NCBI GenBank assembly: GCA_902984215.1
Contig: CADWAF010000224.1
Location: 1-37,330, forward strand
Reading direction: 5' to 3'
DNA: 37,330 nt
DNA from: Willaertia magna
Taxonomy: Eukaryota > Heterolobosea > Eutetramitea > Acrasida > Naegleriidae
Part shown: positions 1,005 through 37,330 of the stretch, in pieces
Layout of the letters: every line of letters starts with the position of its first letter
How positions within the stretch are numbered: the first letter of the stretch is position 1
Translations under genes and position numbers: made by a program
Notes under the pieces: model-generated
What the model was told of the DNA's origin: nothing
Seen by the model: the letters and a program-made list of their open reading frames with translations, nothing else
Databases searched by the model: none

Positions 1005-1086
1005 TGCTCCAGGCAGGACTCGAACCTGCAGCCTCCAGCTATCATAATCTCATAAGACTAGCACTCTACCATTGAGTTACTGGAGC
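1005..1086 (-). tRNA. tRNA-Ile(UAU): tRNA-Ile, anticodon UAU, with a 10-nt intron
   Basis: The minus strand folds as a complete tRNA. The acceptor pairs GCTCCAG with CTGGAGC and has discriminator A. The D stem is ACTC/GAGT around loop AATGGTA. The T arm is GCAGG-TTCGAGT-CCTGC and the variable loop is AGGCT. The anticodon stem CTAGT pairs with GCTGG (two G-T wobbles) only if a 10-base intron is removed after position 37. That leaves the 7-base loop CTTATG|A with anticodon TAT. The GCTCCAG acceptor and the presence of an intron agree with eukaryotic tRNA-Ile(UAU). Without the intron the RNA is 72 nt, with CCA not encoded. The A10-U25 pair is slightly unusual. Confidence 0.92.
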
Positions 1087-5045: not shown

Positions 5046-8000
5046 ATGTCTAGCCAATACATTAGAAATAATAGTCTATTGAATGTCCAACAAGATAATA
5101 ATCTAGACACTGAAGTAATGGAGATTACAATAGACAAACCAATTGAACAACAAGAAGAAACAATAAACAGTTATAAAGGAGGATCAATAATTGACAAAAT
5201 AAAACAACAAGAAAAGAATTATGCAATTGACAGAATTCAACAAAAACTTAATAATAACACTACTGAATTAGACAATAATAGTAATCGAATTAATCATAAT
5301 TATTTTGATGACGTAGTAGATGGAATAGTAGATGACACAGATGAAGAACTGACAACCTTAACTTCAGAAACAAGTGAGGGTTTAGATTCAGATGACGAAA
5401 AAAAAAGTTCAAATAGTAATAACAGTAGAAAGCCTTTAAATAAACAAAGAAAAAAAGATAATACTAATGTTGTTCAACATAAACATACTCACCATAATGA
5501 GAAACAAGTACAAAAGGCTACAGTTTGTTATGATTTTAAGGGAGAAGGCAACCAAGAATTATCAGTTCGAAAGGGAGAGATTGTAGATGTCTTAAAGAAG
5601 TATGATGATGGTTGGACTTGGTGCGTAAAGAAAGAGGAACAGAATTTTGGTTTAGTGCCCACGGCTTACTTAAGGTTTTTAGATCAAAAATCTATAATAA
5701 GGAATACGGTATTGGAGGATGAGAGGAATAGACATTTGAAAAAAGGATATATTTCTTCATCCACTTCTTCAAATTCATTGTCACAAGAGGATGAAGATAG
5801 TAAGACAACGAATGAAGAGGAAGAAGGAAAAAGAGAATGGACTCTTGTACCTAGCAATAGCTCATCAACAAGAAGTTCAGTACAACCTTTAAAACACACT
5901 ACTTCCTTAATGATACCTAATAGCAAAACGATAGAGGAGAGAAGGAATGCAATAAGCAAACTACCAAAAGATAGAAAGATAGAAGTAAAACAATTACCCA
6001 AAGAACCAATAGTCGAGGATTCAAAGAAAAAAGAACCATTACTTAAAAGATTGGGAAGTTTATTTTCTAAAAAGAAGAAAGAAGTTAAAGTTGCAGAGGT
6101 AGAAAAAAGAGCATCATCACCTATTATTGCTCAATTACCTAATGAATCTCACGAAATTGGGGAAAGAGAATTATTGGTCAACTCGGTGCAATTAAAACCT
6201 CATGCTTCAGTAATGATTCCAAATCAACGTTATTCAACAAAAGAATATTTCCAACATGTTGAGAAGTATAAACTAAGACCTATATTTCCGAGAAACGTAA
6301 TGCATGATGTCAAAAAGAAAATTGTTGGTGAGAAGTCTGACAAGAAAAGTGAAAAAAAAGATAAGAAAAAGAAGATTGAAACTATAGAGCAAACTGAAGA
6401 AGCAAACGCTTTGGTTAGAAAGATTCTTGCGTTCAAAAGAAGAAGGGCTTTTAGATTAGCTCTTAAAGATGAAAAATATAAAAAACAAAGGAAAAGAAAG
6501 GAACTTATTAAGGAAACAATCGAAACGGAAAGGACTTATGTTGACAGCTTAAAGGTACTTATAGAATTATTTTACTACCCTTTAGTTAATGATACTGGTC
6601 ATGGTAAGGGTGTTATGGAAAGAGAACATATTCACGCTATATTCTCAAATATTGAACAAATTTATCAAATTAATTCAACCCTTTTATCAGACCTTGATAA
6701 GGCATTTGAGAAATATCCCTTTGTAGAAATTGCTCCTGCCTTATCACAAATTACGCCTTTCTTTAAAACTTATACTACTTATGTGAATAACTTTGAGAAC
6801 TCACAATCAACATTAGAAAGATTAAAAAGAGAAGATAGAAGGGTAAAAGAATTTTTAATGTTATGTCATAAACAAAAGAAAACAAAAGGCAACCAGATAG
6901 GATCTTATCTAATTTTACCTATTCAACGTATACCTAGATATAGAATGTTATTGACAGAAATATTAAATAATACATCTTCAAATCATGTAGAATATGAATG
7001 CCTTAAAAAGTGCGTAAAAGAAATTGAAACCGTTGCTAATTACGTTAACGATGAAAAACGAAAGGTAGAACAAAATCAAATAGTATTTGAAGTTCAAAGT
7101 TTAATTCACAAACAATATCCATCCTTCGTTCAACCAAATAGAAAATTTATCAGAAGAGGAACAATGAATGTACAATATATTATTTATCAAACACAATTTG
7201 AAAATGACGTTGCATATCCCTTTCCAACTCACTTAACCAAACCAGATCAATATCTTTTTGATGTTTATTTGTTTAATGACATTATTGTCTTAATTGAACA
7301 AGAAAAAGTCACAACTTCAAACAATTCCCTTAATAATAAGGAAGATAGACAAATACATTTTATCTTTCTACAGTTTGTTTACAACAATGACTTTACAATT
7401 TTAGATAAAAAGAAAAAGAAATCATTTATTGATTCACCAATCCAATTAGTTTCAAACCATAATAAAAAACGTGGTAGTCTCAGAGTAAATAGTATGGATT
7501 TAGAAAATCTTAATATTACAGTTGAAGATGAAGAAGATTATACCTTTACAATTGAAGTATTATTTAAAGGAGTAAAACAAGAATACATATTTCATACATC
7601 AAATCTTAATGAAAAACAAAGTTGGATGCAGAGCATTGGTGCTAGTTTAATGCAAATTAATAAGAATAACATTTCAAAAGGAATAGAAAATGATTTTTAT
7701 TTAATGGGTAAAGAAAGAGCAAATTTACATCGTATTGCTAAAGAGAAGTTAGAAGAACATCAAAAGTTAGAAAAAGCTAACTTAATGAAAATGTCTTACG
7801 TTAGTCAACTTGACACTCATTTACAAAAGAAGAAACAACTTTTAATGAAATTACAAAAAGAAATTAGTATTTTAGAAATGGACAAGAGTCAAGTAGTTCA
7901 TGAAATGGAATCTTTACAAAATAAGAAATCTAAAATTAGAGAAGATTTAAAGTTTTATTCAACTTCTATACAAGAAAGAGACATGTACTTGATGAAATTA

Positions 8001-8372
8001 TTAAATCAAGAAACTGATGCCTTTAAATTAATATTTGACGATGCCCCATCTGTTGGAACGGAGACAATCTATGCAAAACCAAATACTTTAAACAAACATC
8101 ATTCAGCATTTCCAATTTCATTATCATCCTCTTCTGTAAATACCTCAGATGGTTATTTAAGTGGATTGACAAGACAAAATAGCGATATGTTTTCTATTAG
8201 TAATAATAGTAGTACACAACAACATGAATCACTTAAATCTGACCTTTCTAATGAGAGTAATAACAGCAACAATAATAGTCTTAGTGTAGTTCAAACAAAA
8301 AATAGATCCTTCGTAATTAAACACAACAGAGGTTCTACAAACAACATTACACAACCTCTGCAACAACAATAA
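5046..8372 (+). CDS. SH3-RhoGEF(DH)-PH guanine nucleotide exchange factor
   Basis: The 1108-aa protein has an SH3 domain at about residues 157-212 (ATVCYDFKGEGNQELSV, DDGWTWC, GLVPTAYL). A DH (Dbl homology) domain spans about 484-672, with the start motif KETIETERTYVDSL and the CR3 helix LILPIQRIPRYRMLLTEIL at 622-640. A PH domain spans about 676-871 with a loop insertion, ending in the typical Trp helix (KQSWMQSIGAS). A coiled coil covers about 885-985, and a Ser/Asn-rich tail follows. DH-PH modules catalyse GDP release on Rho-family GTPases, and the PH domain helps with membrane and GTPase contact; which Rac/Rho is the substrate cannot be read from sequence. The middle region (320-480) is strongly basic and could bind acidic lipids. 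No intron is seen. Confidence 0.93.
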   Translation: MSSQYIRNNSLLNVQQDNNLDTEVMEITIDKPIEQQEETINSYKGGSIIDKIKQQEKNYAIDRIQQKLNNNTTELDNNSNRINHNYFDDVVDGIVDDTDEELTTLTSETSEGLDSDDEKKSSNSNNSRKPLNKQRKKDNTNVVQHKHTHHNEKQVQKATVCYDFKGEGNQELSVRKGEIVDVLKKYDDGWTWCVKKEEQNFGLVPTAYLRFLDQKSIIRNTVLEDERNRHLKKGYISSSTSSNSLSQEDEDSKTTNEEEEGKREWTLVPSNSSSTRSSVQPLKHTTSLMIPNSKTIEERRNAISKLPKDRKIEVKQLPKEPIVEDSKKKEPLLKRLGSLFSKKKKEVKVAEVEKRASSPIIAQLPNESHEIGERELLVNSVQLKPHASVMIPNQRYSTKEYFQHVEKYKLRPIFPRNVMHDVKKKIVGEKSDKKSEKKDKKKKIETIEQTEEANALVRKILAFKRRRAFRLALKDEKYKKQRKRKELIKETIETERTYVDSLKVLIELFYYPLVNDTGHGKGVMEREHIHAIFSNIEQIYQINSTLLSDLDKAFEKYPFVEIAPALSQITPFFKTYTTYVNNFENSQSTLERLKREDRRVKEFLMLCHKQKKTKGNQIGSYLILPIQRIPRYRMLLTEILNNTSSNHVEYECLKKCVKEIETVANYVNDEKRKVEQNQIVFEVQSLIHKQYPSFVQPNRKFIRRGTMNVQYIIYQTQFENDVAYPFPTHLTKPDQYLFDVYLFNDIIVLIEQEKVTTSNNSLNNKEDRQIHFIFLQFVYNNDFTILDKKKKKSFIDSPIQLVSNHNKKRGSLRVNSMDLENLNITVEDEEDYTFTIEVLFKGVKQEYIFHTSNLNEKQSWMQSIGASLMQINKNNISKGIENDFYLMGKERANLHRIAKEKLEEHQKLEKANLMKMSYVSQLDTHLQKKKQLLMKLQKEISILEMDKSQVVHEMESLQNKKSKIREDLKFYSTSIQERDMYLMKLLNQETDAFKLIFDDAPSVGTETIYAKPNTLNKHHSAFPISLSSSSVNTSDGYLSGLTRQNSDMFSISNNSSTQQHESLKSDLSNESNNSNNNSLSVVQTKNRSFVIKHNRGSTNNITQPLQQQ

Positions 8373-11627: not shown

Positions 11628-14600
11628 TTAGATAAACTTTAACAAATCATTGGTGTCAATTAAGGTATTTAAATCATCTGTTGCCTTTTCACCACTAAAC
11701 TCAACTCTTAAAGCAGTTCTTTGTGGTCCATTAATTTGATATTTGTCAACATCTTGTTTTGAAACAGACTCTTCTAGAGTGATTTCTGTTTCTCCAGATT
11801 CAACTTTCTCTAAGGTTCTTGAACGTAAAGTAGGGAAGAATCCAATACCAGACTTATCATTTGCAATGTATTGCTCAATGCCAGTATATTCGTCATTTGG
11901 TTTTTCTGTTAAATAAATTAAAAAGTAAACGTAATTCCACATGTAATGTTCTTCCTTAATATGTTTTTCAAATGTAATTCCTTGATTAGCGTGGATGTCA
12001 AAACGAGTTTTTTCATTATTACAAATAAAACATTTTTCTTTGATTTCCTTTTCTTTTTTATTACTCTCTTCTCTACGAGCACTGAAAGAATCCAAAACTA
12101 AACCAAAGAGAACATCTAATAAAATAATAACAGCAATAAACCAAGCAATCATATCAAATATAAATCTAGGCACATCAAAAGGCTAAAACAAGTTAATAAA
12201 TTTGTTAAAAGTAATAATACTTACTGTAGGATTATCTATAGCATCTTCTAGAAAACCTTCGCCTCTTACAAAGTAATTTATCATAGAGGCAAAGCAAAGT
12301 ATTGTACTTCTACAAATTTGAACTTTCTCACCATCGATACTTTCAATAACAAATTGATCCCATTTTACTGAGAAAATAACAAAAGCGTGGGCAGTTAAAG
12401 TAAATGTTAATAAGGCAGCAAATACTAATAGTTTTGAGTAGTTACTACTAATTGAGACAATAATATCTCTTGTGGCTTCAAATCTACCAATAACTTCAAA
12501 CAATTGCAAGCAATAACACAGTGGTGACACTATTAAGCCGAGTAATGATACCATAAAGAATACAATAAGCCATAATAAATAATAATCAAAAATAAAGTTC
12601 TTCAAAACTGAAAATAAGAATGTAAATTCCTCAGGTATTTGGTTCATAAAAATTACTTCCTTAATATTAGATAATATCACTTTAAGTTCCAATTTTTCTT
12701 TGTATTGTTTGATTTTATCATCCCAAGTTTCATCTCTACTAAAACCCATTTTCTTTTTAATATTAAGCATGCTAAAGAAAGATATGTGAATTGCAAATAA
12801 TATTATTGTAGAGGCAATTTGGAATAGACCTAAAACTGCTACAAATGTACCCAACCAGGAGTATTTAAATCCTTGGTTATATGAAAGATTTTGATCTTTT
12901 AAATCCATTCCTGGGACGGGGATTGGAGAACCAATTCCTGCATCATATCTGTGATGGTAACTACAAAGCACAACAATATTAATAATAATTGAGAAGAAAA
13001 ATGATAAATTCTTAATAATATCCCAAACTAAAATATCATAAATAGTATATCTGAGAACACTCCATATTTTAGAACGAATGGTATTTGGATTATCTTTGTA
13101 TTGTTGTAAGTGTTTCATTTCAGGTCTAAATACTTGGTATGTCTCATCTAACAAACATTTTACTTTAGTTTGTGCACTTTCCATATCGATTTTATCTTTG
13201 AACTCCTTTTTGGTACTATATAAATTTGGTAATTATAAAGTAATAATAAAAATACATACCTTTCTAATAAATTAGAGCAGATAGGAGGCTTTATAAAATG
13301 CACAACTTCAATTTGATTTTCTCTATTGATGACTTCTATAGATCCTGTCAATCCCAAAAAGTATTTGTACTCAAATCCTGTATTTTCTTCAATTTCTTTT
13401 GGATATAAATATTTTAAAAGTATAAAAATAGAAGCTCCCAAATCAGAAAAATCTTTTCTGATATCATCCATTTCTCCCCATTCTTCTTCTTCTATCTCTC
13501 CTTTTTTCTTTTCTTCAACATCATCTTGTTGCTTTTGCATTCTTTTTATGATTATGTCCTCATATTTATCTTGCTTATATTTAATTTTTTGCCAAGCAGA
13601 CTTTTCTACATAGCCAATGGGGACTACAAATCTGCCGAACCTTAATAATTGTTTTTCTAATGATTTCATATTAAGTTGTCTACGCAATAAATTACCACTG
13701 ACTTTGTTATCCCCTTCCAACATACTTGTCAACAAAACTATAGTTTCTTTTAGTAATTCAAACTGCTTCTCGAGCTCAATGTCGTCTCGATTAATTTTTT
13801 TTGGGTCCTGGAATATGTTAATTTCAATAATGTCATTTAGTACTGTAAATAATCTTGAAGACGAAGAAATAATATTTGAGTTTTCTATGCAAGGCCCTTG
13901 TATAAATTCATTTAGAGTTTTAATTGCTTGGGTGACAGTCTCCACATTTGATTTGTTGACATACTTATATAAATGAACAGTGTATTCACAAACATCAGAA
14001 ACAAGGTTAACTGAAACCTTATTGAATGGTTGTTCACTTAACATTTTTTGACTTTCAATATTGTGGCCCTCACAAAGCAACTGAAGAAATCTCAAAACAT
14101 TTTTAGCACTAGATGTTTGTTGAGAAACATAATCTTTTTCTCGTTTTCTCATTTCCTTTTCTTCTAGAATTGATAATCTAATCATGTTCTTAAGGGATGT
14201 AAAGAAATTCTCAAACTCTCCATTTTCAAAGGCCCCCTTTTTTGTTAGTAGTTCACGAATTTTGGTTTGATTCCTTTCTCTATTGCTTTCCATATCTAAA
14301 ATAGTGATACCCAATTGCAATCCTTTTATAATAAAATCATCATTCTTGGAGCAAATTAATTGTAATACCAGTTTACAAATACTTTTTAAAATACTTTTTA
14401 CCGTCTTTTTATCCATAGTAACAATTTTGATAACAGCACGGTCAACTTCACCTACTGAAAGTAAAAAGGTATCAAGAATATCTCTTGGAAGAACGCTCTT
14501 TTCAGTATTAGAACCTACCCTTATAATATTTTGCAAACACATGACAAAATTTTTTAAATGTTGTTGGAATCTTTCTTCTTTGCTCAAACTATATTCACCA

Positions 14601-17600
14601 AAATTTAATTTCTTAATATCTTCTATATACTTTTTCAACATTTCACCTTCAACATCTCTATCCTTTAGATTTACCTTTATTTCTTTATTAGAGACCTTTG
14701 AAATTGTGATAAGATTGTTTTCAGAATAGTTATCTAAATCTGTACTAAAGTTATCTTCAACAATACCTTGTCGAGCTCCAATTCTTTTAACTACAGAATA
14801 ACAAGATATAATTTCTTCTCTATGCCATGCATTTTGTATGTATAACTTTGATAAATTATCAAGTAAGTCAGATACTATTTTTTTAATTGCCCCCTTAGAT
14901 TCAACTTTGTGTATAAAAACTTTAGAATAATTTTCTGGATTGAAAACCTTATCAAAAAAGTTTTTAATAAGAGGCAGAACTATTTTATAGATGTAGGAAT
15001 CATTAACGTAAATTGGTCTTCTTATAAGAGGCGATTCTTCCAATAATATGGTGTCTTCTGTGACAGGAGTATTATCCCCAGAAGGTAACTCAGATGATGG
15101 GATTTCATATTTGAAATTCAATTTAAATTCATCTAGATAATTATTTTTCCCTTGATTTAGAATAAATTCTTGAAATTCTGTGTTAATTTTTTCTAGTAAT
15201 GCCCATATTTTAGGATTTGTTAAATCTTGGTCTGTTACTTCTTCAGTAAAGAAATAAAGCTCTAATAAAATTAAGAAACTAAAAATCCAGAATATACTTA
15301 CCATTTAGCAACAATAGCATTGGATCTCTTAGAGGAGGAATAATTGATTCTTCAGTGAGGTGGGATAAAAGATCGTCGTATGAAAGCAGTGATTGAGCAC
15401 CCATTTCTGCTAATTTTACCTTATCTCTAGTACAATCCTTTAACAAGTGCAAAAGGTTGATGTGATAAGATAATTCAGAATAAGGTTTAAGATAATCCTT
15501 TTTGGCTATCATTCTGGCCCTTTCCTTCATTCCTTCCTCCCCATTGTACAAAATAACTAAAGAACGATAATCTTCCTTCAATTCTGAAATAATAGCGTTT
15601 TGATTACTTTGGTTACTAAAACTTTCTTGACTACCAGCAGTAACTATTTTAGATTTTGAATTAATGGTTAAAGCCCGTAAGAAGTTTAAGTGGTAAGCTT
15701 TGTAACCACAAGAAATAACTTTGTCTAGATATAGTCTAATTATCATGGGTTCTACTTTTGCTAAATTATCATCATTTCCACGAACAACCTCAGTTAAAAG
15801 TTCGGAAACATCAATCTCTGGACCCATAAGACTAATAAATAACTTCAATTCTTTAAATAATTCCTTTTGATTTTGCTCGTTTCCCTTAACAAACTCTGTT
15901 AGTAATTCAATACAAAGTTTGTGTATCTCTGACTTTATGTGAGAAGGATAATTTACCACTAAGGTTTTCAATATTAAGTTATGAAGCTCCCAATTTCTCA
16001 TTGCTGTCTTCACTCTTGGCTCTTTCAAGGACTCGGTAAGACTTTTCATTAGATCACATAAGTACATAAAATCTTTGGATGTTTCCCCTCCAACAAAACT
16101 AGAAATGCTCAATAAAGTGTTTAATTGAGTAAATTCATTGAAAATCTTTTCAAATTTTAGGCATTCAGCGTTTGATGTGAGTAAAGAAACTTTGAGCAAA
16201 TTCTTGTGTAATTCACTCTTGATGTTGGAAGCTTTTAAAAGAATTTTCAAACATTGTTGTGCAGTCTCTTGGTAAGTGTTAATATTTGAAAGTAAGTCAT
16301 TAACAATTGACACTAAAAGTGGAACGCCTCCTATTTCAATCAGATTATCATTAATAATCATGCTTGATAAATTTCCAAATTTCTGCTCGTCCTTATCTCT
16401 TAAATATGTGCTATAAACAGATAATATTAAAGACATTTTGAAATCAATAATAACGTCCAAAATGTATAATACAATATCACACATTAATTGCTTGATTTTC
16501 AAAACATCTCCAGTTTCGTCCTTAAACTTCACTTCCTTGCAAATAGCAACCACCAATGATTTCAATAATTTCCCAACACTGCCCCAAAAAGCTTTGTCAA
16601 TTTCCAACTTTCCATTATTTTCTTTTACATCAATGTCAACAGAATCCAACCTATCACCATAAGGATTGTACACCCTGTAAGTAAAACATTTCTTCAGAAT
16701 TTTCAATAATGAATAAAAAACTTTAAGGTTATGAACATTTATGGTATCAGTTCCTAAGCATGTTGTTAGACCTTCAAATTCTCTATCTAAGAAGCATGTT
16801 AGATCTTTAAATTTTCTGCGATATTCTGATATATTATTTTGAGCTCCTGATTTGTCATCTTTTTTTAATGGTCTTGCTAAAGATATAGCTGGAAGCTCAG
16901 CGTGTTTTGCATTGTCCAAAAAGCAATATTCTAATATCTCAGCAAAAGAAGATCTAATTAAAGGATCCATTTCACTATCTATAACACTCAATATGGAATC
17001 AGTAGAAAGCTTTGTTTTTGTTATAACAAAATCAATACCATCTTTGTTTTTCCCCACGCACAAAGCAACCAATAAACTCATTGCTCTTAAAAATAATTGT
17101 TTTTCATGTTGATTATGAGATATATTTTCTAATTTCTTTTCATTACCATCAATATTTACTGTTATTTCTGTACTATTTTCTTTTAGGTATGGAAAAGGAA
17201 ATAGAGGAGTGAGTAAACCCTCATTCTTCTTAATTAAAGTAATTAAATTATTTTGATTTTTTAGCACTGGTCTTTCATCACAACGACAAATGTTACTCTT
17301 TAATTTAATTAACAATTAACTGAAATATTAATTGGTTACTTACCAAAAATAAAATAAATATTTCTTTCTTCTTAGTTGACATTAGGATAGAGATAAAATT
17401 TTCAATATCTTCCACAGTTATTTTTTCTAAAATTTCCATATTATCTCTAATAATCTGAACTAAGGCATCTGTAGCATATTCACCTCCTATTCCTTCTTTT
17501 AAATGCTCTTGTAATTCACTAAAATACTCTTTTTCCAAAATATAAGCACAAGTGGCTATATTTCCTCTTGACAAAGCTGAAATGCAAGAGTAACAATTAT

Positions 17601-19449
17601 CGAATAATTTACTCCAAATAATTTCTTCATGTTTCGATTTTCCAACTCTAATCATTTCAAAAATAGAATCAATCATTCCAATATCTCTAAAATAGTTTTG
17701 TCTATCAATAGTTGTACAAAAGTCTTTAATTGATGAAAGTGCATCAAATAATATATTCATTTCATATTCAGAAATATCTGTAATTGAGGATATTATTAAT
17801 TTTATAAAATTTTGAATAATAGGTAACAAGAGAAATATAGTATTCTGTTCATTTGTCTCTTCTGTTCTCAAAATATCAAAACTAAACACGTCTCTTTCTC
17901 TAAAATCACCAAACCATAAATCTACTTTTGCATCTTCAATTGCAAGGATATCTTTCTCATTTACGTCACCGGTTCTTAGCCATTTTCTTGTTTTAAAGTG
18001 TTTAATTCTAAAAAGGCTATCAAATTTAATAGGCTCATCTAATGATGAATTAAATGCTTCATTATCTTCTGCAGATGAAAAAGTAAATAAACAATCGTCG
18101 TCATTAGGATCATCAGAAAGCATTAACTTATATTTGAGCTTGTTAATAGTGTTTTTAAGTCTTAACCAATTGGATGTAGAGGAATTTTGATTTTTGCTTT
18201 TAGTTTGTTCCAAAACTTCCTTTGCCATTAAATAACAACCACTTGCCAAATGCTTAAGACGAAGAGGCATACCAAAATAAGTAATACCACCTCTAGTTGT
18301 ATCAAATGCTTCAACCTGAAAGACAGAAAGAATAGATTTAGAGCTTGTTCCTCTATTTAATTTTAAGGCAACATGTTCACAAACTTTTCTTTGTCTATGA
18401 TCAAAATAAATTCCTCCAGAAATATCTTTATGTAAAAGTCTAATTAAATCTCCACCCTTTAAAAAACTTCCTTCATTTGGAAGACAATATCTATATAATC
18501 TAATTTTCCAAACAACATCATCTCTATACATTATAGATGATTGTAGAGTATTTTCTATATGACTTGAAGCATTTACTTCTAAACGATTATCATTAAAAAC
18601 TAATGGTTTTAAATACGAATAACGTGAAACATGAATAACATGTTTAGTCTTTTCCGAATATAAAATTACTTTATCAGAAAATCTAACAGGCTCCCCTTCC
18701 TTAAAAACATTTTTTAATAAACTAAAAATGTAATTTCAGTAAATATTTACTTACCACTCTAAAGGTAAAGCGAGGCTTGAAAGTCCAATGCGATCTTTTA
18801 TCTCCACTGCTTAAAGAGATCTTTACAGTTTTTAATGAATTAGTTTCAAATTGCTTTAAAGTACTAATTTACTTACCTTTAAACATTCTTTTTCTAGTAA
18901 AGAACTTGTTCTTATAACAGTTAGGTATTTTCCTGTTTTAATATGTTTTAATTCAATTTTTTCTCCATATAAAACTGGCTTTCCGAAAGCTTTCTTTTCT
19001 TCAGTTTCATTTTCCTCTTCCTCTAATTCCTTTTTCTTTTTTTGAGCATCTATAATTGCTTTATTATCAGACGTTTTATTTCCTTTAATTCTTTTATATT
19101 TCTTCTTCTCTGTATAAACATTTCCTTTGCAAATTAAAAACAAGGCTTCATCAAAGTTTGATAACAAACTTGGATCTGTAGAAAATCCACATCTCATATA
19201 CTTATATTTATCTTCACCTTTGACTGCGAAACCCTTTACGGAAAGGAAACCAAAATTTCCTTTATTTTCTTCTTCATCATTGTCATTGTTTTGATCCGAT
19301 ACTTCAAGAGAAGATTTTAAATCATTACCACTTTTATTAATATTTAATTCTGATGGTACACTTGAAAGTGTCTTTTGTGGTGTAAAATACATTGACAAAC
19401 TGATGGTAGCCCCATAGTGTAAAATATTTGGGTCAATAAAGCCAGACAT
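11628..19449 (-). CDS. ITPR: IP3-receptor-type intracellular calcium release channel
   Basis: Seven exons, read on the minus strand: 19449-18877, 18820-18755, 18699-17344, 17297-15302, 15261-13260, 13215-12225, 12182-11628. They sum to 7539 nt, or 2512 aa, close to the usual ~2700. Order: N-terminal beta-trefoil (KTGKYLTV, LLEKECLK), MIR region (LRLKHLASGCYLMAKE), RIH/armadillo repeats through exons 3-5, then six membrane helices in exons 6-7 with a pore loop (residues 2316-2322) before S6. After S6 comes the IP3R/RyR zinc knuckle C2379-C2382-H2402-H2407 (CFICNNE, FEKHIKEEHYMW). Joins match the family: FILFL|SNIC corresponds to YLSDLC. These channels release Ca2+ from the ER. Here most known IP3-coordinating residues are replaced and the selectivity filter differs. 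Start 19449 was preferred over the in-frame ATG at 19485 because of its A-rich context. Introns are 56, 55, 46, 40, 44 and 42 nt. Confidence 0.95.
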
Positions 19450-22038: not shown

Positions 22039-22039
22039 A
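22031..22039 (+). promoter_or_regulatory. Two-codon upstream ORF overlapping the GspF start
   Basis: The leader reads ATGAAATAATGG. ATG AAA TAA is a complete two-codon frame whose last base is the first base of the GspF ATG at 22039. Ribosomes that translate it would stop exactly on the main start, which could dampen or couple initiation. It matters only if the transcript begins upstream of 22031. Confidence 0.55.
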
Positions 22040-23532
22040 TGGAAAATAAACAAAAGACTAGATTGGAAAGGCTTTTAGCTCATATTTATCCATCTTCTTT
22101 GTCTACTAATAAGAAGAAACAAGAACAACAAAAGGGATTACCGAAATTTGAAACTGAAAACCATAAAGTTAATGAGAATAAATCTACTAAAAAGAGAATT
22201 AGTAATTTATTACTTTCCAACATTACATCTATTCTGCCTCTTCTTATCAAGCTTCTTTTACCTTCTCTTTCCGATAATAATAATACTAAACATTTAGGAT
22301 ATTCAAAAGTAGTTACCCAATCTTCACAAACCAATAACAATCCAAAACAATCCGAGAAACAACAAACAACCAAAAAACCTAAACAAAAAGTAAATTATGA
22401 TCCAACTTCTCATCCAAATCCAATAGATAAAATAATTAGAAGTTTTCAAGGAAGTGGAGCATTATCTACGGATTCAATTCAAGCCTTTAATAATATTTTA
22501 TTCTTAGTTAATTCTATACCACCTTCAATGAATAGTTTAAGTATCTTTGATATTATGTTAAGAAGTTCAAAAAGAGATTCAGATTTATTACCTTTCTTAG
22601 CTCAAGTTAAAATACCCAAAAGTGCATTAGGAGGTACAGATTATAAAACATTCATTACGACTTTATCAAAAGTTAAAGTTTATTTGCCTAATTGGTATTA
22701 TAATGCATTAGTTTTAGCTAAAGCCTTGAATAATTTTGATTCAATTTTACTATTTTGTGCACAACGATTTTCCAGAGAAATTAAAATTCAAAAAGCCATT
22801 ACTGGTGCATTAATTTATCCTGCAATTATGTCAGTAATTGGTTTTATAGGTATTATTTTATTATTAACTAAAATTTTACCTCAAAATATTAGTATTTTCG
22901 AAAGTATGGGTTTAACAGTCCCTTCTTTCTTACAATATACAAATTATTTAGTTCGTTGCGTACAATATCATTGGTTAGCTTTATTTTATATTATTCCATC
23001 TACAATCTCTATGGAGTATTTACCTTTTAGAACCTTTTTAAAATATCAATACATGAAAATGCATACACCTTTAGGGAATTTACAATTTTTACAAGATAAA
23101 TCAACTTTATTGCATATGTTATCCTTATTAGATAAAGAACAAATTACCTCTAAGTTGTTATTGGTTTGTTCAAATATTAGTACTAATCCTGTACTTCAAC
23201 ATATGGTTGAGGGGATGGCAAGCTTAACGAAGTATGGAGCTAGCGCAGATGAGGTGTTTGCTTATATGTTAAAACAAAAACATATATTTTCACCTTATGA
23301 AATTGCTTATTTACAAGCTTGCTTTATGAGTGGTAAACATTCAATTATACAAGATGGTTTGAAATATGTTTCACAAATGGTATTGAAACAATACATGCAA
23401 CAATTATCTACCTTATTAAAGATTCTTAATCCTGCCACTATTGCAATTATTGGAGTGTTGGTTATTATCATTGCTATACTTGGTATATATCCAATGATAG
23501 CCCTAACCAGTGCTGTCAGTGCCAATAAATAA
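22039..23532 (+). CDS. gspF: GspF/PilC-type secretion platform protein, mitochondrial T2SS-like
   Basis: The 497-aa intronless protein has the two-domain GspF layout. The first T2SSF domain (about 160-285) ends in ALIYPAIMSVIGFIGIIL, with TM1 at 260-279 and the family's post-TM block (IFESMGLTVPSF). TM2 is at about 311-329. The second domain spans about 355-480, with TM3 at 466-488 (ILNPATIAIIGVLVII). In bacteria GspF is the inner-membrane platform that couples the GspE ATPase to pseudopilus assembly. In eukaryotes, heteroloboseans and jakobids are known to carry a mitochondrial version (GspD/E/F/G). Residues 1-155 are an added Lys/Asn/Gln-rich extension absent from bacteria; its first 20 residues are basic and partly amphipathic, compatible with a mitochondrial presequence. 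The acidic Gly-Glu motifs before the domain ends are lost (ALVLAKALNNFD). Base composition matches its neighbours, so this is not recent contamination. Confidence 0.88.
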   Translation: MENKQKTRLERLLAHIYPSSLSTNKKKQEQQKGLPKFETENHKVNENKSTKKRISNLLLSNITSILPLLIKLLLPSLSDNNNTKHLGYSKVVTQSSQTNNNPKQSEKQQTTKKPKQKVNYDPTSHPNPIDKIIRSFQGSGALSTDSIQAFNNILFLVNSIPPSMNSLSIFDIMLRSSKRDSDLLPFLAQVKIPKSALGGTDYKTFITTLSKVKVYLPNWYYNALVLAKALNNFDSILLFCAQRFSREIKIQKAITGALIYPAIMSVIGFIGIILLLTKILPQNISIFESMGLTVPSFLQYTNYLVRCVQYHWLALFYIIPSTISMEYLPFRTFLKYQYMKMHTPLGNLQFLQDKSTLLHMLSLLDKEQITSKLLLVCSNISTNPVLQHMVEGMASLTKYGASADEVFAYMLKQKHIFSPYEIAYLQACFMSGKHSIIQDGLKYVSQMVLKQYMQQLSTLLKILNPATIAIIGVLVIIIAILGIYPMIALTSAVSANK

Positions 23533-25012: not shown

Positions 25013-28000
25013 ATGTCTTTGACTAAATTTACTGACATTGTTATTGCTGGTAGATCATTTAGTCTTGAAGGTTTGAATGATAAAGAAATACTTTCAACAG
25101 GTTTAGAACAAATTGATTATGTTTCAACAAGTATTCCATTTGCAGTTAATAAAATTATTGCTGGAGGAGCTTTTAAATACGAATATAACTGTATCTGGAC
25201 AAAAGAAGATAAAATATATCTTTTAACTTCTCAACCAATATCAATTAGAGATTACGTGTCGTATTTTAGAGATGTGAAGAATGAATTTAATGCTTATGAA
25301 ATTGATTTCAAAAAAGCCATTGCAGAGGTAAATAATAATGAAGAAAATTTAAACCTAGAAATTAAGGAAATTATTGGAAATGCTAATAGTCTCTTTTTAT
25401 GGATGAAAAATGATCATTTATATAATTTTCAATTCGGTGGTGGTCCATTCATTAGTGGTTGTAAACAAACTAAGGCTGACAAGAAGGTTATTTCGATTGT
25501 TGGAACAGGCCCAATGTCAGAACGTTTTTATTTTGTTGAGGAAGGTAAGTGGTTTTGTTAACATTGTTAAATTGTTACTTTTATTATAGAAACTTCAAAT
25601 TGTTATTTAAATGAAGGTTGCGACGAATCAACCTTAGTAAATGATGTTTTTTCATCTGATATCTCATTGATTGGCTGTTGTAAAAGCGAATACTTATCCA
25701 ACAAATTTACTCTAGATGTCTTAGTTACAAAAGATAACAATCTTTATTGTAAATTTGGTGGCGACAAGTTTATCCATAAACCATTTAACTTTACCTCAAA
25801 AGTGACACAATTAAAATGTGGAAATTCACATGTTGCTCTGTTACTTGCCAACAATGATTTATACTATTTTGATACTACAATTGTTGAACAGCAGCAACGT
25901 AAAGGGAATTTGAATCCCCCAAAATTTGTTAAGGAACTTTTAAAATTAAATGTCAACTGTTCGCCAGTTATTGATATGCTTTGCAGTTCCTTGCATACTG
26001 AAATTGTAACTAAGGAAGAGTTAATTCTTGTAAGAAAACCTGATTTCGATGAGGAACCCGAGGTGAAAAGAAAAAAGTTTAAGGATACTGTTAAATTACG
26101 TAAATGCAGTGGTATTGATGTGTTAATTGACTATCATATTGCTGTTGGGCCTTGGCATAGAATTTTATATACAAAACAATCTATTTCAAAGGGACTAGAG
26201 TTGCTATCAACAAATTTAATGAAATTAACACCAACTAATTCTATCCATACAAATGATTCTTCATTAGGATTATCAACAAATAATGAAATTACTTCTATTG
26301 GAGAAATATATCAACAACAACCACTACAAGAGGATCATTTCAAATCATCTCCTAATACTATTACCGGTTTTAATAATAATACCAATTACTATAATAATAA
26401 CAGTAATAAAAATAGTTTAGAAATACAACGTCAACAATATCATGACTATAATGATGTAGGAAGTACAATAGATTGTGGAAGTGTCACATTACAAATACCA
26501 CATGATGATCATAAAGTAGAAACTGAAATATTTGATGATGAAAGTGAAGAAGATGAAGAATTAGAAGATTCAATTGAAACAACTAAAAAAGAAAATACCT
26601 TAAACATTGATCCAAGTATCCAAGAACAACAACAAAACAAATCAGATAATAATGATAAATCATTATATCTTTGTTTCAGTGGTGGAGGTATAAGGAGTGC
26701 CTCTTTCCAATTAGGTGTTCTTGAAGTGATTGAGGGGAAGAAAGCCTTAAATAAGATTCATACAATAAGTAGCGTTTCAGGTGGTGGATACACAGCAAGT
26801 AGTTTAATATCACATTGGTATTGGAATTCCAGTGAAAAGGGTATTGTAAAGAAGTTAAAAAGACAAATGAGGGAAAATGTAAATTTTTTGATGGGAACTC
26901 CTTTAAAAGTATTACAAGTAGTTTCTTCTGTAATTATAGGGGTATTACATAACATTATATTTGGATTAGCTCTTTCTTTATTGTTAGCTAGTTTTATTTA
27001 TAGTGGTTTTGTGACGAAAGGTTTTCCTGTTCCTCCAAATACAACTTTAAATCAAACGAGTAGAGAGGAGGTAGATGTGTATAATGAATATAGTAGGAAG
27101 ATGTCAGATTATGAAGGGATTAATTATATTCCTTATTTATTATGTTTTTATAGGTTAGATACTGATATAAGGAATGGTACATATGTCAGTAGTATTGTAC
27201 AACAAGAATATGGTTTTGTTTTAGTGATTGTAGTTATATCTGTAATTGTATTGACAGCGTTTGGTGTTGTATTATTTAATTATATAAGAAAATGTTTTAA
27301 AACGACAAAACGATATTATAAATTATTAAGGATTGATAGAGAACCAAATATTTATTCTTCACCACAAAATGTTAATAATGGTGGAACGAGTGTGTTTGAT
27401 AATCATTCTTCTGACAGTGACGGTGAAGAGAATTATCCAGAAGAAGGTAGTATAGAATATAAAGTACAAACGATAGCTTTTAAATTAATTAATATATTTT
27501 CAAGAATATTTTTAATAGTAATTATAATTATTTTATTATTAGAGATTTTAAAGTTATTAATTTTTGGAATTGGAAATTTAATTGTAATTACGGGTTTTAA
27601 TAACTTTTTTGTGATTATCATTGTATGTTGGGTTTTATTATATCTGGTAGGATTGTTTTTTGCAATACTTATGAAATTTTCACCATTATGGTCACCAGCT
27701 ATGGTTTTCTTTTTCTTATTGAATCCATTAATTTTTTTAATATTTACAGGTAAGTATTAATAATTGACTGCTGTCACATTTTAATCTTTTTAAATTTAGC
27801 TGGATTTTCACTTTGGTATATGTATGATGTACCAATCTTTCCATTTTCTTCAACTACTGGAAATTCAAGAATGATTTCTATATTAGAATGTGTTTCTTGG
27901 TGCTTTTTCATTGTAGAACTTTCTTTCTCTGACATTTTAGATAGTGCAATAGCTAATATTTATAAAACAGCATTACAAACAAGTTTCTATTATAAAGGTA

Positions 28001-29534: not shown

Positions 29535-31934
29535 ATGATACCCAACAAGCCTAAAAATCATTCTACAATAACAATATTAATAATAACAATAATAATACTA
29601 TTCTTTATTATCATAAACAATAACATTGAATGTAAAAAAGAAATCAACTTGGGCTTTAATTTTGCAGCTGAAGAGGCTGGAGCAAAAATTTTAACAGCCA
29701 ACCCAGAAGCCAAAAAAGTTTCACGTATTCTTAATGAAGATACAGATAAATATTGTTTAATACCAAGAAATGCACCTTCTAAGTTTATAATTATAGAATT
29801 AAGCGAAGAAATTGCAATGACAAGTTTAGCTTTAGCAAATTTTGAATATTATAGTTGTTCTTTTAAACATTTTAAAGTGTTTGGTTCTGTAACATATCCT
29901 TGTAAAAAAGGTGATGATAAATGTTGGGATTTATTAGGTACATTTCAAGCACAAAATACGAGAAAAGTACAAAATTTTAATTTAAAAAAACCTTCTATTT
30001 CAAGATACATAAAATTAGAGTTTTTATCACATTATGGTGAAAATGAATATTATTGTACATTAAGTTTAATTAGAGTTTATGGAAGTACTTTATTGGAGGA
30101 TTTAAAGAAGTCTTTACAAAAATCTACAACTCATAGCAAATCAAATAGTAATAAAAATAATGAAAATGTAATTAATAATAATCATAACAATAATGCAGAC
30201 AATTTGGAAGATAAAATTAATAACAACAACAGTAACAATTATAATAACAATAATATAAAACTAGAAAATAATGTAAATACGCAAAATAATTTGGAAAAAA
30301 TTGAAATGAAAGAATCTTTAAGAAAAACGAATTTAATGAATGAAGAATTGGATAAAACTTTTGGTAAATTATTGGAAGATGATCTTTCTAGATTGTTAAA
30401 AAAAGAATTGGAACCAGAAGTTTTTAATAACGTTACCAAAAAAGTTTATTTTTTTAGGAAAAATAATATTTGTGAAATGAAAGAAAAACCTAATATTATT
30501 TTACAAAGATGGTCTAGATCTGTAATTTCAGATACATGTCCTATAGATGTAAATTTTAATAGATTTAATTACACAACATTTGTAAATTCATTACAATCTT
30601 TGTATAACAATCAAAATAATACTACAAGTAATAACTCTACAAATAATAACAATACTGCAACAATAGGAAGCAAGAAAGGAATATCATCGCCCAATACTAC
30701 CACAACCGCAAAGAGTGAAGTAGTTGTTGAGGCAACCAAGGCAAATGATACTTTAGTAGGATTTTGTCCATTTACTTTTAACAATATGACTAAGGCAACA
30801 AAACTCTTTCAAATGAAGAATGAAACAATTTGTAAAATACATGAAAAAAATATATTTGTAGAGACGGATAACAACTTGACAACTAATGATGAGGAAGAAG
30901 AAATAGAGGAAGAGGAAGAAGAAAGTAATTCTCAAGAAGATAATAATAATAAGAGTATATTAGATTTAATGAATGAAAGAGAAAATATCTTAAAATCGTT
31001 ATTTCATGCGGTTAAGACATGTGGAGAAAATGAAGCAATATTAAGAAGTCAATTAAAATCAATGGACACAAAATATCATAAAACATTTCAATATGTACAA
31101 CAAATATTAGAAAAGAATGGTGAAGATCACAAAATATTAGCCAATACATTTATGAAATTAAATCAAAAGAATAAAGAAAATATAATAAATGAATTAAGGT
31201 TAGATATGGAAAATAAATTGAAACAGAAATTAGATATATTAGAAAATAATTATGAACAAAGGTTTATTAAAATGAAAGAAGAATACAGTAACTTATATGT
31301 TGGGTTTAGGTATAGTATTGTGATAACGACTGCTATAGTTTTTGCTATTTGTATTTTGATACAAATTGCATCTTGTGGATTTTTATATATTTATTACTTT
31401 AATAACCAAGATGAAAGAGTGCCATCATTGTCATTGTCGAAACAACGTAGGAATTCAAACATATCCAATAATGGTAGCATTACAAACAACAACAATAATG
31501 AACTTGATAAGGGTGGACAACAATTGGTGACTACAGATAAATTAGTTCCAATGATGCCTCAACATCAACCACAGATAATTCACAAAAAGGAAGAAAAAGA
31601 ATTTAATGATATTGTTTATAGTACACCAAGAAGAAAATCTAATGCCAGTAACAACAGTAGTATTGGAAACTTTTTAGTTAATGCTGTTTATTCTTCTGTA
31701 TTTTCAGACATTCGTGAGGCCTCCCCAAGAAAAACAAAGAACTTCACAGATAATTCATCATCCAACAATTTAGACATTCCAAAGTTAGAACTATCTAATG
31801 GTAATAACAAGGAATATTTGTCTTTCCGTAATAATGATTTTCATGATGGTTACAAGTTTTTACCTTCCTCTGATGGTCAATTGAATGCCAAAGTTGACTT
31901 AAAAAAGAAACATAAAAAGCATAGGAAACATTAA
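29535..31934 (+). CDS. SUCO: SUN-domain protein of the SUCO/SLP1 type
   Basis: The 799-aa intronless protein has an N-terminal signal-anchor (residues 11-30), then a mid-type SUN domain at about 38-190. Signature blocks are NFAAEEAGAKIL, NPEAKKVSRILNEDTDKY, IIELSEEIAMTSLALANFE, FKHFKVFGS and CTLSLIRVYGSTLLED. Several Asn-rich stretches follow, then an acidic patch, a coiled coil at about 470-590, and a membrane span at 593-622. The C-terminal tail is very basic (KKKHKKHRKH). This is the order found in SUCO/SLP1 proteins (SUN - coiled coil - TM), ER membrane proteins that in yeast pair with Emp65 and protect soluble clients, unlike nuclear-envelope SUN proteins whose SUN domain is at the C-terminus. 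The basic tail could help ER retention. The low-complexity insertions make it hard to align outside the SUN domain. Confidence 0.9.
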   Translation: MIPNKPKNHSTITILIITIIILFFIIINNNIECKKEINLGFNFAAEEAGAKILTANPEAKKVSRILNEDTDKYCLIPRNAPSKFIIIELSEEIAMTSLALANFEYYSCSFKHFKVFGSVTYPCKKGDDKCWDLLGTFQAQNTRKVQNFNLKKPSISRYIKLEFLSHYGENEYYCTLSLIRVYGSTLLEDLKKSLQKSTTHSKSNSNKNNENVINNNHNNNADNLEDKINNNNSNNYNNNNIKLENNVNTQNNLEKIEMKESLRKTNLMNEELDKTFGKLLEDDLSRLLKKELEPEVFNNVTKKVYFFRKNNICEMKEKPNIILQRWSRSVISDTCPIDVNFNRFNYTTFVNSLQSLYNNQNNTTSNNSTNNNNTATIGSKKGISSPNTTTTAKSEVVVEATKANDTLVGFCPFTFNNMTKATKLFQMKNETICKIHEKNIFVETDNNLTTNDEEEEIEEEEEESNSQEDNNNKSILDLMNERENILKSLFHAVKTCGENEAILRSQLKSMDTKYHKTFQYVQQILEKNGEDHKILANTFMKLNQKNKENIINELRLDMENKLKQKLDILENNYEQRFIKMKEEYSNLYVGFRYSIVITTAIVFAICILIQIASCGFLYIYYFNNQDERVPSLSLSKQRRNSNISNNGSITNNNNNELDKGGQQLVTTDKLVPMMPQHQPQIIHKKEEKEFNDIVYSTPRRKSNASNNSSIGNFLVNAVYSSVFSDIREASPRKTKNFTDNSSSNNLDIPKLELSNGNNKEYLSFRNNDFHDGYKFLPSSDGQLNAKVDLKKKHKKHRKH

Positions 31935-34623: not shown

Positions 34624-37330
34624 TTATATTTTCTTCATTCTATTCTCTAATTCTCCACAGAAAGTTATGTAATCCACATCATTTCTTTCATCCTCAAATC
34701 TCTTTTTTAACAAATCCATTTCTTGAAAAGTTAAATTAAATTTAAGGAAATCCAAAACTGCTGTAAATTGTGTTTTAGTAACCCTTTCTTTTCTCAACGG
34801 ATCATAATCTTGAAACCAAACCTTTAAGATATGTCCCTTAATCTTAGCCATTATTGCTAATCTATGCATTAGTTTTTCTAATTGTTCTTCATCTACGTTG
34901 TTCTTCAATTCAGGCAAATTAGCTTTCAATGCATAAGAATGTCTTGGTTGGAAAGGTTGCACAACCTTTGTTGGGAGTTTTTCAAGATGCTTTTCCGTTA
35001 CAACCCTTTCTAATTCATCACAGAAAGATGTATAACTCACCATTTCATGTGTATCATATCCAGTGCTATCTATTTTATAGAACTTTTCTAGCATATCCAA
35101 CTCTTTATCAGATAGATCTATTTTAGTCATGCTTAAAGCAGTTCTAAACTTTTGCTTAGTCACATAACCTTTTCTTAGTTTATCAAAATCAACAAAGAAT
35201 TGTCTAACACCTATTCTATTTTTCACTGTCTCTGAAATAATTTTGTGAAGAACATCTGAAATATCTCTATTGACACTCTTTGAAGTCTTAGAACTATCAG
35301 TAAATGACTTGGACATCTCTAAATCTAATTCTTTTTCGTAGAGAGTTTTTTCCCCTCCAGCCCTTTCACTCCTATCTAAATCCTCAATTAATTGAAGATA
35401 ATTTACATATCCAGAACTTTCTTCATAATAGGAATCTATTAGAAGTTCATAATCTTTATGTGTTAAGAATGAAAAAAGCTTATCCAAACACTGAATGAAG
35501 TGGGTCTTGTTAATCTTGCCTCTATTGTAATAGTCAAAATCTTGAAAATTGTTTTTCAAAATTATTCTGTGGGTTAGTACTTGCGATTGCATTCTTTGTA
35601 AAAGCTTATCCACTTCTTCTTTTTCGTATTTTACCTTAGGTCCCTTGATTGTTTTAGTTGTTTGCAAAAAATCGTGCTTTGAAATTAACTCTTTGGAAGG
35701 TGTCTTTTCCATTTGCTTTTCAGTAAATACTTTATCAATTGTATCACAAAAATCTCTATATTTAATGAAACCTAACCTTCTACTGCTTTTAAACTGTTCT
35801 TTTATCCCATTGAATTCATTATTGGTGAGGTTAATTGATGCCATACTCAATGCTGATCTAAATTGTGTATCTGTAATCTCATTAGATCTTAAGGGATCAT
35901 AATCCACCATAAATTCCTGAAGTCTTATTCTATCCACAAGAGATTGTAATGTAATGTCCTGTAATATTTCATCAACACTTCTATCAACAGGTGTTTTCTT
36001 TTCATTTACAAATGCCTTAACAGTATTTTCGTGGATTCCTCTTATTATTAAATCCTCTTCCTCTATTCCATTCTCTATATCCTCAATAAACATTTTGTAG
36101 TTGACATCACCATTATTTAAATCATTATACTTTTCAGCTAATATATCATACTCTTCCCTTGTCAGAGTTAGACCCAGCATATGAAGAGCTCTCTCAAATC
36201 TAGTTTTGGTAACATGATCTGTAGAATAAGTAGATTTCTTAGTTTTATCAAAATCATCGAAGAAAGGCATTAACATAATTCTATGAGTATACACTTTTCT
36301 TCTTAAATGCTTCATAATTTCATTATATTTGATTTCCTTATTATTATCTAAGGATTTTCTATCCTTTCGAACCAAATAGTTTTGAGGATGAAATTGTTTA
36401 GTTGGAAATTTTTCAAGGCCGGTATCATTAAATACGTTATACATATTGTTAATAAAATCCATATATACTACTCTAGTTTGAGAATCTCTATCCTCAATTC
36501 TATATTTCTCTGCAAGTAATTCTAATTGACTATCCTTTAAGGTCATCTTTGGAAACTTAATAGCTCCTAATACACTTTTGAACTGTTCCTTAGTTACGTA
36601 TCCAGTCCTGAGTCTATCAAAATCTCTAAAGTTTTCATCAATTTTAATTCTGTATTTAAGAAGTGCTTTCTTAATTTCCCTTTCAGTATCTTCCACTTCT
36701 TTATATTCCTCTTCAGTATTATATCTATGTGTTTCTTGATATACTGTATCAACTTGTTCATTTTTATAAATTTCTTTATGAAATTGTAAATAATTCACAT
36801 CTCCTTTGTCATTAGTAAATCTAGAGAGAATTAACATTAGTTCATTTTGATTTAATTCTTTAAAGGGAATTGTTTGTAAAAATTGAGGCTTAGTGACTGT
36901 ACCATGATTTAAGGGATCAAAGTCCTTAAAGTAATCCTTAACTATATAACCTTTTGTAGTACATTCTCTCCTTAATTTATCATATAACACTTCCAATTTT
37001 TCCATTTCATTTTCTCGAAGAGGTTTAGGTTGCTTTAATGTTTCAATAAGTGGTGATACGCTAAATGTACCACTGGTTGGTTGTTTTTCCATATTTCTTG
37101 TTGTGAAAACTGTAAAATATTACAATAAATATTAATTCTGAGGTATTGAAACTTACCTTTATCAATAGTATTAGAAAATACCAAATAATTCATCTTATTA
37201 ATGTTTGGATCTAAATACTCCTTTACTAGAAAATCAAAATTGCTATCGGATAGCTCAATCCCACACATACTTAAACATCTTCTAAATTGTTGTACCGAAA
37301 CATAACCTGATCTAAGTTTATCAAAATCAT
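34624..37330 (-). CDS. Degenerate EF-hand repeat protein, 5' end missing
   Basis: Two visible exons, from the window edge to 37157, then 37109-34624, with a 47-nt phase-1 intron (AAAG|GTAAGT to TTTACAG). About 885 aa are visible and the frame is still open at the right edge. The visible part has eight EF-hand-derived units, each starting DFD or DYD plus a loop such as DKLRKGYVTKQKF or DPLRKERVTKTQF, then a helix, a turn and a strand-like V-Y-x-x-F. Odd units (1, 3, 5, 7) end in V.TE..LEK.PT and even ones do not, so the real repeat is a pair of about 200 aa. In all eight loops, compared with D-x-D-x-D-G-x-I-xxx-E, positions 3, 5 and 12 are mostly non-acidic, so most units should not bind calcium. 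A structural or ciliary-type protein is possible; Naegleria-type amoebae do make flagella. The spliced join reads IDKVFTTRNMEKQP, matching the odd-repeat pattern. Confidence 0.85.

Follow-up and report, generated by a model that had tools for sequence, protein, structure and literature searches.

In a 37,330-nucleotide stretch of the Willaertia magna genome (Heterolobosea; positions 1 to 37,330 of contig CADWAF010000224.1, hereafter the window), we analysed a minus-strand gene (19449..11628) that encodes a channel of the inositol 1,4,5-trisphosphate receptor (IP3R)/ryanodine receptor (RyR) family. Judged by alignment, the mammalian-type coordination site for inositol 1,4,5-trisphosphate (IP3) is absent from this protein, and the site is also missing from the other heterolobosean relatives in our alignment. 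The counterparts of the glutamates that coordinate activating Ca2+ and the zinc-binding residues are retained, and the selectivity filter is altered.

PMC9663519 lists T267, R269, S274, R504, K508, R511, Y567, R568 and K569 as IP3 contacts of IP3R1; R265 and G268 were taken as contacts from the original prediction, made from the letters of the window alone. A hidden Markov model (HMM)-HMM alignment (hhalign; probability 99.8 local, 99.96 global) of the four-row clade that holds the window protein with six animal-type IP3R cores paired R265/T266/T267/G268/R269 with K326/L327/N328/R329/G330, S274 with S332, R504/K508/R511 with I544/N548/R551 and Y567/R568/K569 with N593/I594/A595. Aligning by HMM with IP3R1 and animal IP3Rs thus reproduced the residue partners that the original prediction had assigned by hand to three contact groups (K326-L-N-R-G330, I544/N548/R551 and N593-I-A595). 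Two MAFFT modes gave the same partners as the HMM-HMM alignment for R506, K508, R511, Y567, R568 and K569 and aligned R504 and the 265-269 stretch to gaps; phmmer did so for 268-269. K508, R511 and the YRK triad have the same partners in both MAFFT modes and the HMM-HMM alignment, so for these residues we rejected a shifted alignment that conceals the site; this rejection does not extend to the beta-trefoil loop, and the pairing of R504 rests on the HMM-HMM and hand alignments only. Because MAFFT and phmmer place gaps in the loop, and because residues 325-332 have a predicted local distance difference test (pLDDT) score <50 in the AlphaFold2 model, the placement of K326 and R329 is uncertain, and their true distance to the pocket could be nearer or further than aligned.

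The predicted remainder of one or two contacts out of ten agrees with these alignments: one is identical (R551), and K326 is a conservative replacement at R265. Among the seven basic residues of the pocket, the window protein keeps one according to MAFFT and two according to HMM-HMM alignment (K326, R551). The MAFFT count of 1/7 compares with 14/46 for the other Lys/Arg residues of the core (Fisher p 0.66), which suggests that the IP3 contacts are kept at background level; a faster loss is not demonstrated.

The gene consists of seven exons and six GT..AG introns of 40-56 bases. Its spliced product has 2512 residues and a single terminal stop, and equals the annotated W. magna protein ABK040_011745 letter for letter. 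A pseudogene or an error in the gene model was ruled out because the spliced model equals the public annotation. The interval given in the original prediction (17344-18699) is precisely exon 3. Exons and contact-residue codons are as follows:

18877..19449, minus strand: exon 1, residues 1-191, covering most of the Ins145_P3_rec domain at the N-terminus
18755..18820, minus strand: exon 2, residues 192-213
17344..18699, minus strand: exon 3, residues 214-665, corresponding to the IP3-binding core, with the MIR beta-trefoil and the first RIH/ARM domain
18349..18363, minus strand: codons of K326-L-N-R-G330, counterpart of IP3R1 R265-T-T-G-R269 by HMM-HMM alignment (gaps at 268-269 in phmmer; gap in MAFFT)
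17686..17709, minus strand: codons of I544-D-R-Q-N548-Y-F-R551, counterpart of R504..K508..R511 (all by HMM-HMM alignment; N548 and R551 also by MAFFT)
17554..17562, minus strand: codons of N593-I594-A595, counterpart of Y567-R568-K569 by MAFFT and HMM-HMM alignment
15302..17297, minus strand: exon 4, starting at residue 666, with ARM repeats and a further RIH-like match (19 bits, under the cut-off)
13260..15261, minus strand: exon 5, RIH-associated domain (RIH_assoc, 3e-27, residues 1711-1808), E1782 and E1846
12225..13215, minus strand: exon 6, ending at residue 2328, which carries the transmembrane region, with EGFLED (residues 2317-2322) in register with GGGxGD
11628..12182, minus strand: exon 7, residues 2329-2512, with the pore-lining helix, the zinc knuckle (C2379/C2382/H2402/H2407), T2428 and the stop

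A Pfam search of the window protein (P0001) detected Ins145_P3_rec, MIR, RIH and RIH_assoc in this order, all above the cut-off. The ion-channel domain PF00520 gave no match in P0001; a six-row profile does align to the pore region of IP3R1, and several relatives carry PF00520. Structure prediction indicates an N-terminal beta-trefoil/ARM clamshell whose fold matches IP3-bound IP3Rs in a fold search, which gives ranges and not residue pairs; the cores of RyR1 and IP3R1 tie in this comparison. A zinc knuckle (CxxC..HxxxxH: C2379, C2382, H2402, H2407) is present and is kept in all 15 heterolobosean rows with data. SPRY and RyR repeat domains gave no match in P0001, which has 2512 aa compared with ~5000 aa for RyR; a genome search with PF02026 gave 0 matches in Willaertia and likewise 0 in the controls and is hence uninformative. 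The original prediction had called the channel convincingly an IP3R from its MIR, RIH, pore and zinc-knuckle alignment, and membership of the IP3R/RyR family is supported by the four Pfam domains, the fold, the zinc knuckle and the profile alignment.

The conservation of the site in relatives was followed in a core alignment of 27 rows, rat IP3R1 and 26 others (25 of the 36 proteins numbered P, and C825); P0006-P0009, P0022 and P0031-P0036 were left out, hand-picked as short or for their Pfam lists. One protein search returned just nine proteins, probably since Asn-rich words filled the candidate list. Of the ten contacts, each of the 12 rows named as Willaertia or Naegleria (the window's among them) retains 0-3; four unplaced metagenome/JGI rows that group with heteroloboseans in the tree retain 1-3 and five other protist-like rows 1-2. 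The five animal-type controls, four animals and one unplaced row grouping with them, keep 9. The loss is therefore no peculiarity of the window gene, as the 11 other named heterolobosean rows, the four unplaced and the five protist-like rows have no such site either. Pocket and core residues were counted in a MAFFT E-INS-i alignment whose rows are related, so that the p values are rough: the 12 named heteroloboseans keep 27/84 pocket basic residues and 190/552 other core Lys/Arg residues (p 0.71), the animal-type controls 35/35 and 173/230 (p 0.0002). Separate counts gave 4/28 pocket basic residues for the four-row clade of the window protein (p 0.049) and 20/42 for the six named rows of its sister clade (p 0.08). 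By these counts, the IP3 contacts across the heterolobosean rows show no stronger conservation than the residues around them. The YRK triad is intact in 0/16 heterolobosean rows, one of which (mg_20) does retain R568. At the position of R568, Glu stands in 8/8 sister-clade rows and an aliphatic residue (I/I/V/L) in all four rows of the window's clade; Asn replaces Y567 in 13/16 heterolobosean rows. Lys or Arg is found at the 245 position in 12/12 and at the 317 position in 11/12 rows of the two clades, and in none of the six animal-type rows.

Activating Ca2+ is coordinated in IP3R1 by E1978 and E2042 (PMC9663519, PMC8930994). Their counterparts in the window protein are E1782 and E1846, and both glutamates are present in 15/16 heterolobosean rows. 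The filter region of the window protein reads VRGEGFLEDA (residues 2314-2323). GGGxGD occurs in 0/16 heterolobosean rows, which have Glu at the Gly preceding the final acid (15/16) and Trp at x (11/16); the animal-type rows show it exactly (3/5) or with one change (2/5), and it is also found in an unnamed EF-hand-bearing row (P0005). Ion selectivity may differ in the window channel.

In the Willaertia assembly (19.24 Mb in 894 contigs, which may be incomplete), searches with three markers (PF08709, PF08454 and a Trichoplax protein) each pointed to the same six contigs, and PF02815 added two further contigs with short open frames. The assembly holds six IP3R-family genes, none of them canonical (0/6). 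The three markers detected no concealed canonical paralogue; with a possibly incomplete assembly its absence is unproven. Searching the assembly for YRKNQE(Y/H)I as a degenerate DNA motif gave 46 matches with 2-3 mismatches, compared with 39 in the reversed control, and none with 0-1 mismatches. In a tree made by a quick method (support by SH-like approximate likelihood ratio test, SH-aLRT, only; root for drawing; unusual letter composition in several rows including the window), the window protein pairs with P0021 of N. gruberi (100*), to which it is 46% identical across 1800 columns. The pair of N. lovaniensis P0002 and Willaertia C404 adjoins it (100*), a second clade holds C439 and C210, and C586 and C825 are two further Willaertia genes. 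C210 (P0003) has Ser at the first Ca2+-site glutamate, Ser at the Thr and RSDSAFEN in the filter region; it is possibly a regulatory or degenerate subunit. The genome also encodes at least two phosphoinositide-specific phospholipases C (PI-PLCs) with EF-hand, X, Y and C2 domains. No match to the IP3-kinase family PF03770 was detected in the assembly, a search in which only 1 of 14 control genomes (an archaeon) matched.

Compared with known channels, the window protein shares with IP3R1/2/3 the domain order, a length of ~2500 aa, the predicted clamshell fold, the Ca2+-site glutamates and the zinc knuckle, but differs from them in nine of ten IP3 contacts and in its filter (EGFLED, not GGGxGD). 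Like ryanodine receptors it has no YRK triad (SRGNIATCA aligned with IRGNRTNCA in RyR1), and the same Ca2+-site residues are reported in RyRs (PMC9663519, PMC8930994); unlike them it is half as long, has no SPRY or RyR domain match and gives a lower profile score. The nearest tree relative, N. gruberi P0021, named 'inositol 1,4,5-triphosphate receptor' in its source, is also without the IP3 site and differs in its filter region (RAEAFLEN). Kinetoplastids, like Heterolobosea, belong to Discoba, and oomycetes to a different supergroup. For kinetoplastid and other parasite homologues, loss of IP3-contact residues was published in 2011 together with the same two alternatives, gating by something else or a different binding of IP3, and according to Prole and Taylor the GGGXGD motif is conserved there (PMC3194816). 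The IP3Rs of trypanosomes are described as weakly conserved at the IP3 site but activated by IP3, also in a cell line without IP3Rs of its own (PMC9694693, PMC6027440); by these descriptions, on which our comparison is based, TbIP3R and TcIP3R differ from the window protein in their GGGXGD filter, their IP3 activation and their single occurrence per species. Oomycete homologues, likewise compared by description, resemble it in poorly conserved IP3-contact residues, with the same two alternatives discussed (PMC9694693, 2022).

As the best explanation, to which we would give an even chance, we propose an IP3R-family channel that has no mammalian-type IP3 site and is opened mainly by cytosolic Ca2+. 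As a member of the IP3R/RyR superfamily, the gene product would be an intracellular Ca2+-release channel that resides in a Ca2+ store, is insensitive to IP3 and opens RyR-like by Ca2+-induced Ca2+ release; its clamshell would no longer grip IP3 in the mammalian manner and may serve as a structural hub, or as a binder of something other than IP3 in mammalian geometry. It is very improbable that a wrong gene model, a pseudogene or a misalignment merely hides an IP3 site. The core is only ~20% identical to IP3R1, and MAFFT leaves gaps at the beta-trefoil loop and R504; the match to the public annotation, an open gene of 2512 aa whose N. gruberi relative shows 46% identity in the kept columns, and the consistent pairing of K508, R511 and the YRK triad in three alignments already largely refute such an artefact.

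Several observations favour a channel still gated by IP3, in which the same clamshell would hold the ligand with rearranged basic residues (K326, R329, R546, R551, R591 or others), perhaps at lower affinity. The chief evidence against our proposal comes from the literature: trypanosome IP3Rs are reported to be weak at this site yet IP3-activated (PMC9694693, PMC6027440), and therefore the absence of residues alone cannot exclude IP3 gating. The predicted clamshell fold is retained, with K326 conservative at R265, R551 at R511 and an Arg (R591) two residues ahead of the Y567 position, and PI-PLC genes with the EF, X, Y and C2 domains are present. We nevertheless regard IP3 gating as rather unlikely, since R504, K508, Y567, R568 and K569 are replaced by I544, N548, N593, I594 and A595, the intact triad is missing from every heterolobosean row (R568 in mg_20 apart) and pocket basic residues are kept merely at the background rate. 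Less likely again is a clamshell that binds another small molecule or a protein (a different inositol phosphate, a nucleotide or an internal peptide) which primes the channel. The replacement of R568 is patterned by clade, the Lys/Arg residues at the 245 and 317 positions are clade-conserved and absent from animal-type rows, and the six paralogues, which form two well-supported clades beside two further genes, hint at specialised inputs; however, this reading names no candidate ligand, and the conserved residues may be structural.

Elsewhere in the window, a 497-aa open reading frame (ORF; 22039-23529, plus strand) matches the Pfam family T2SSF (type II secretion protein F; E 2.1e-12) although the genome is eukaryotic; Naegleria has a type II secretion system in its mitochondria. 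Neighbouring ORFs match RhoGEF with SH3 (5046-8369, plus strand), patatin (25667-27757, plus strand), Sad1/UNC (29535-31931, plus strand) and EF-hand (34627-37092, minus strand), with no evident connection to the channel. A single tRNA gene lies at 1005-1086 (minus strand; Rfam 61.4 bits).

Loss of IP3 contacts in protist IP3R homologues is already published for parasites (PMC3194816) and oomycetes (PMC9694693); our searches of an open-licence library found no publication on the heterolobosean IP3R family, its missing site or its altered filter. Heterolobosea provide a free-living, multi-gene case in which no member was seen with the animal IP3 site, alongside PI-PLC and an intact Ca2+ site. 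The name 'IP3 receptor' on the N. gruberi relative P0021 is to be treated with caution, being unsupported by its ligand site. Ca2+ gating could extend to the whole group: Heterolobosea may have undergone a radiation of IP3R-family channels, with six genes in Willaertia, that do not use IP3 and are gated by Ca2+, with a repurposed clamshell and a new filter, an idea that we hold tentatively and with more doubt than confidence. If it is true, the IP3 made by PI-PLC would act on something else in these cells. Whether the ancestral gating of IP3R-family channels was by IP3 or by Ca2+ becomes directly testable in one organism.
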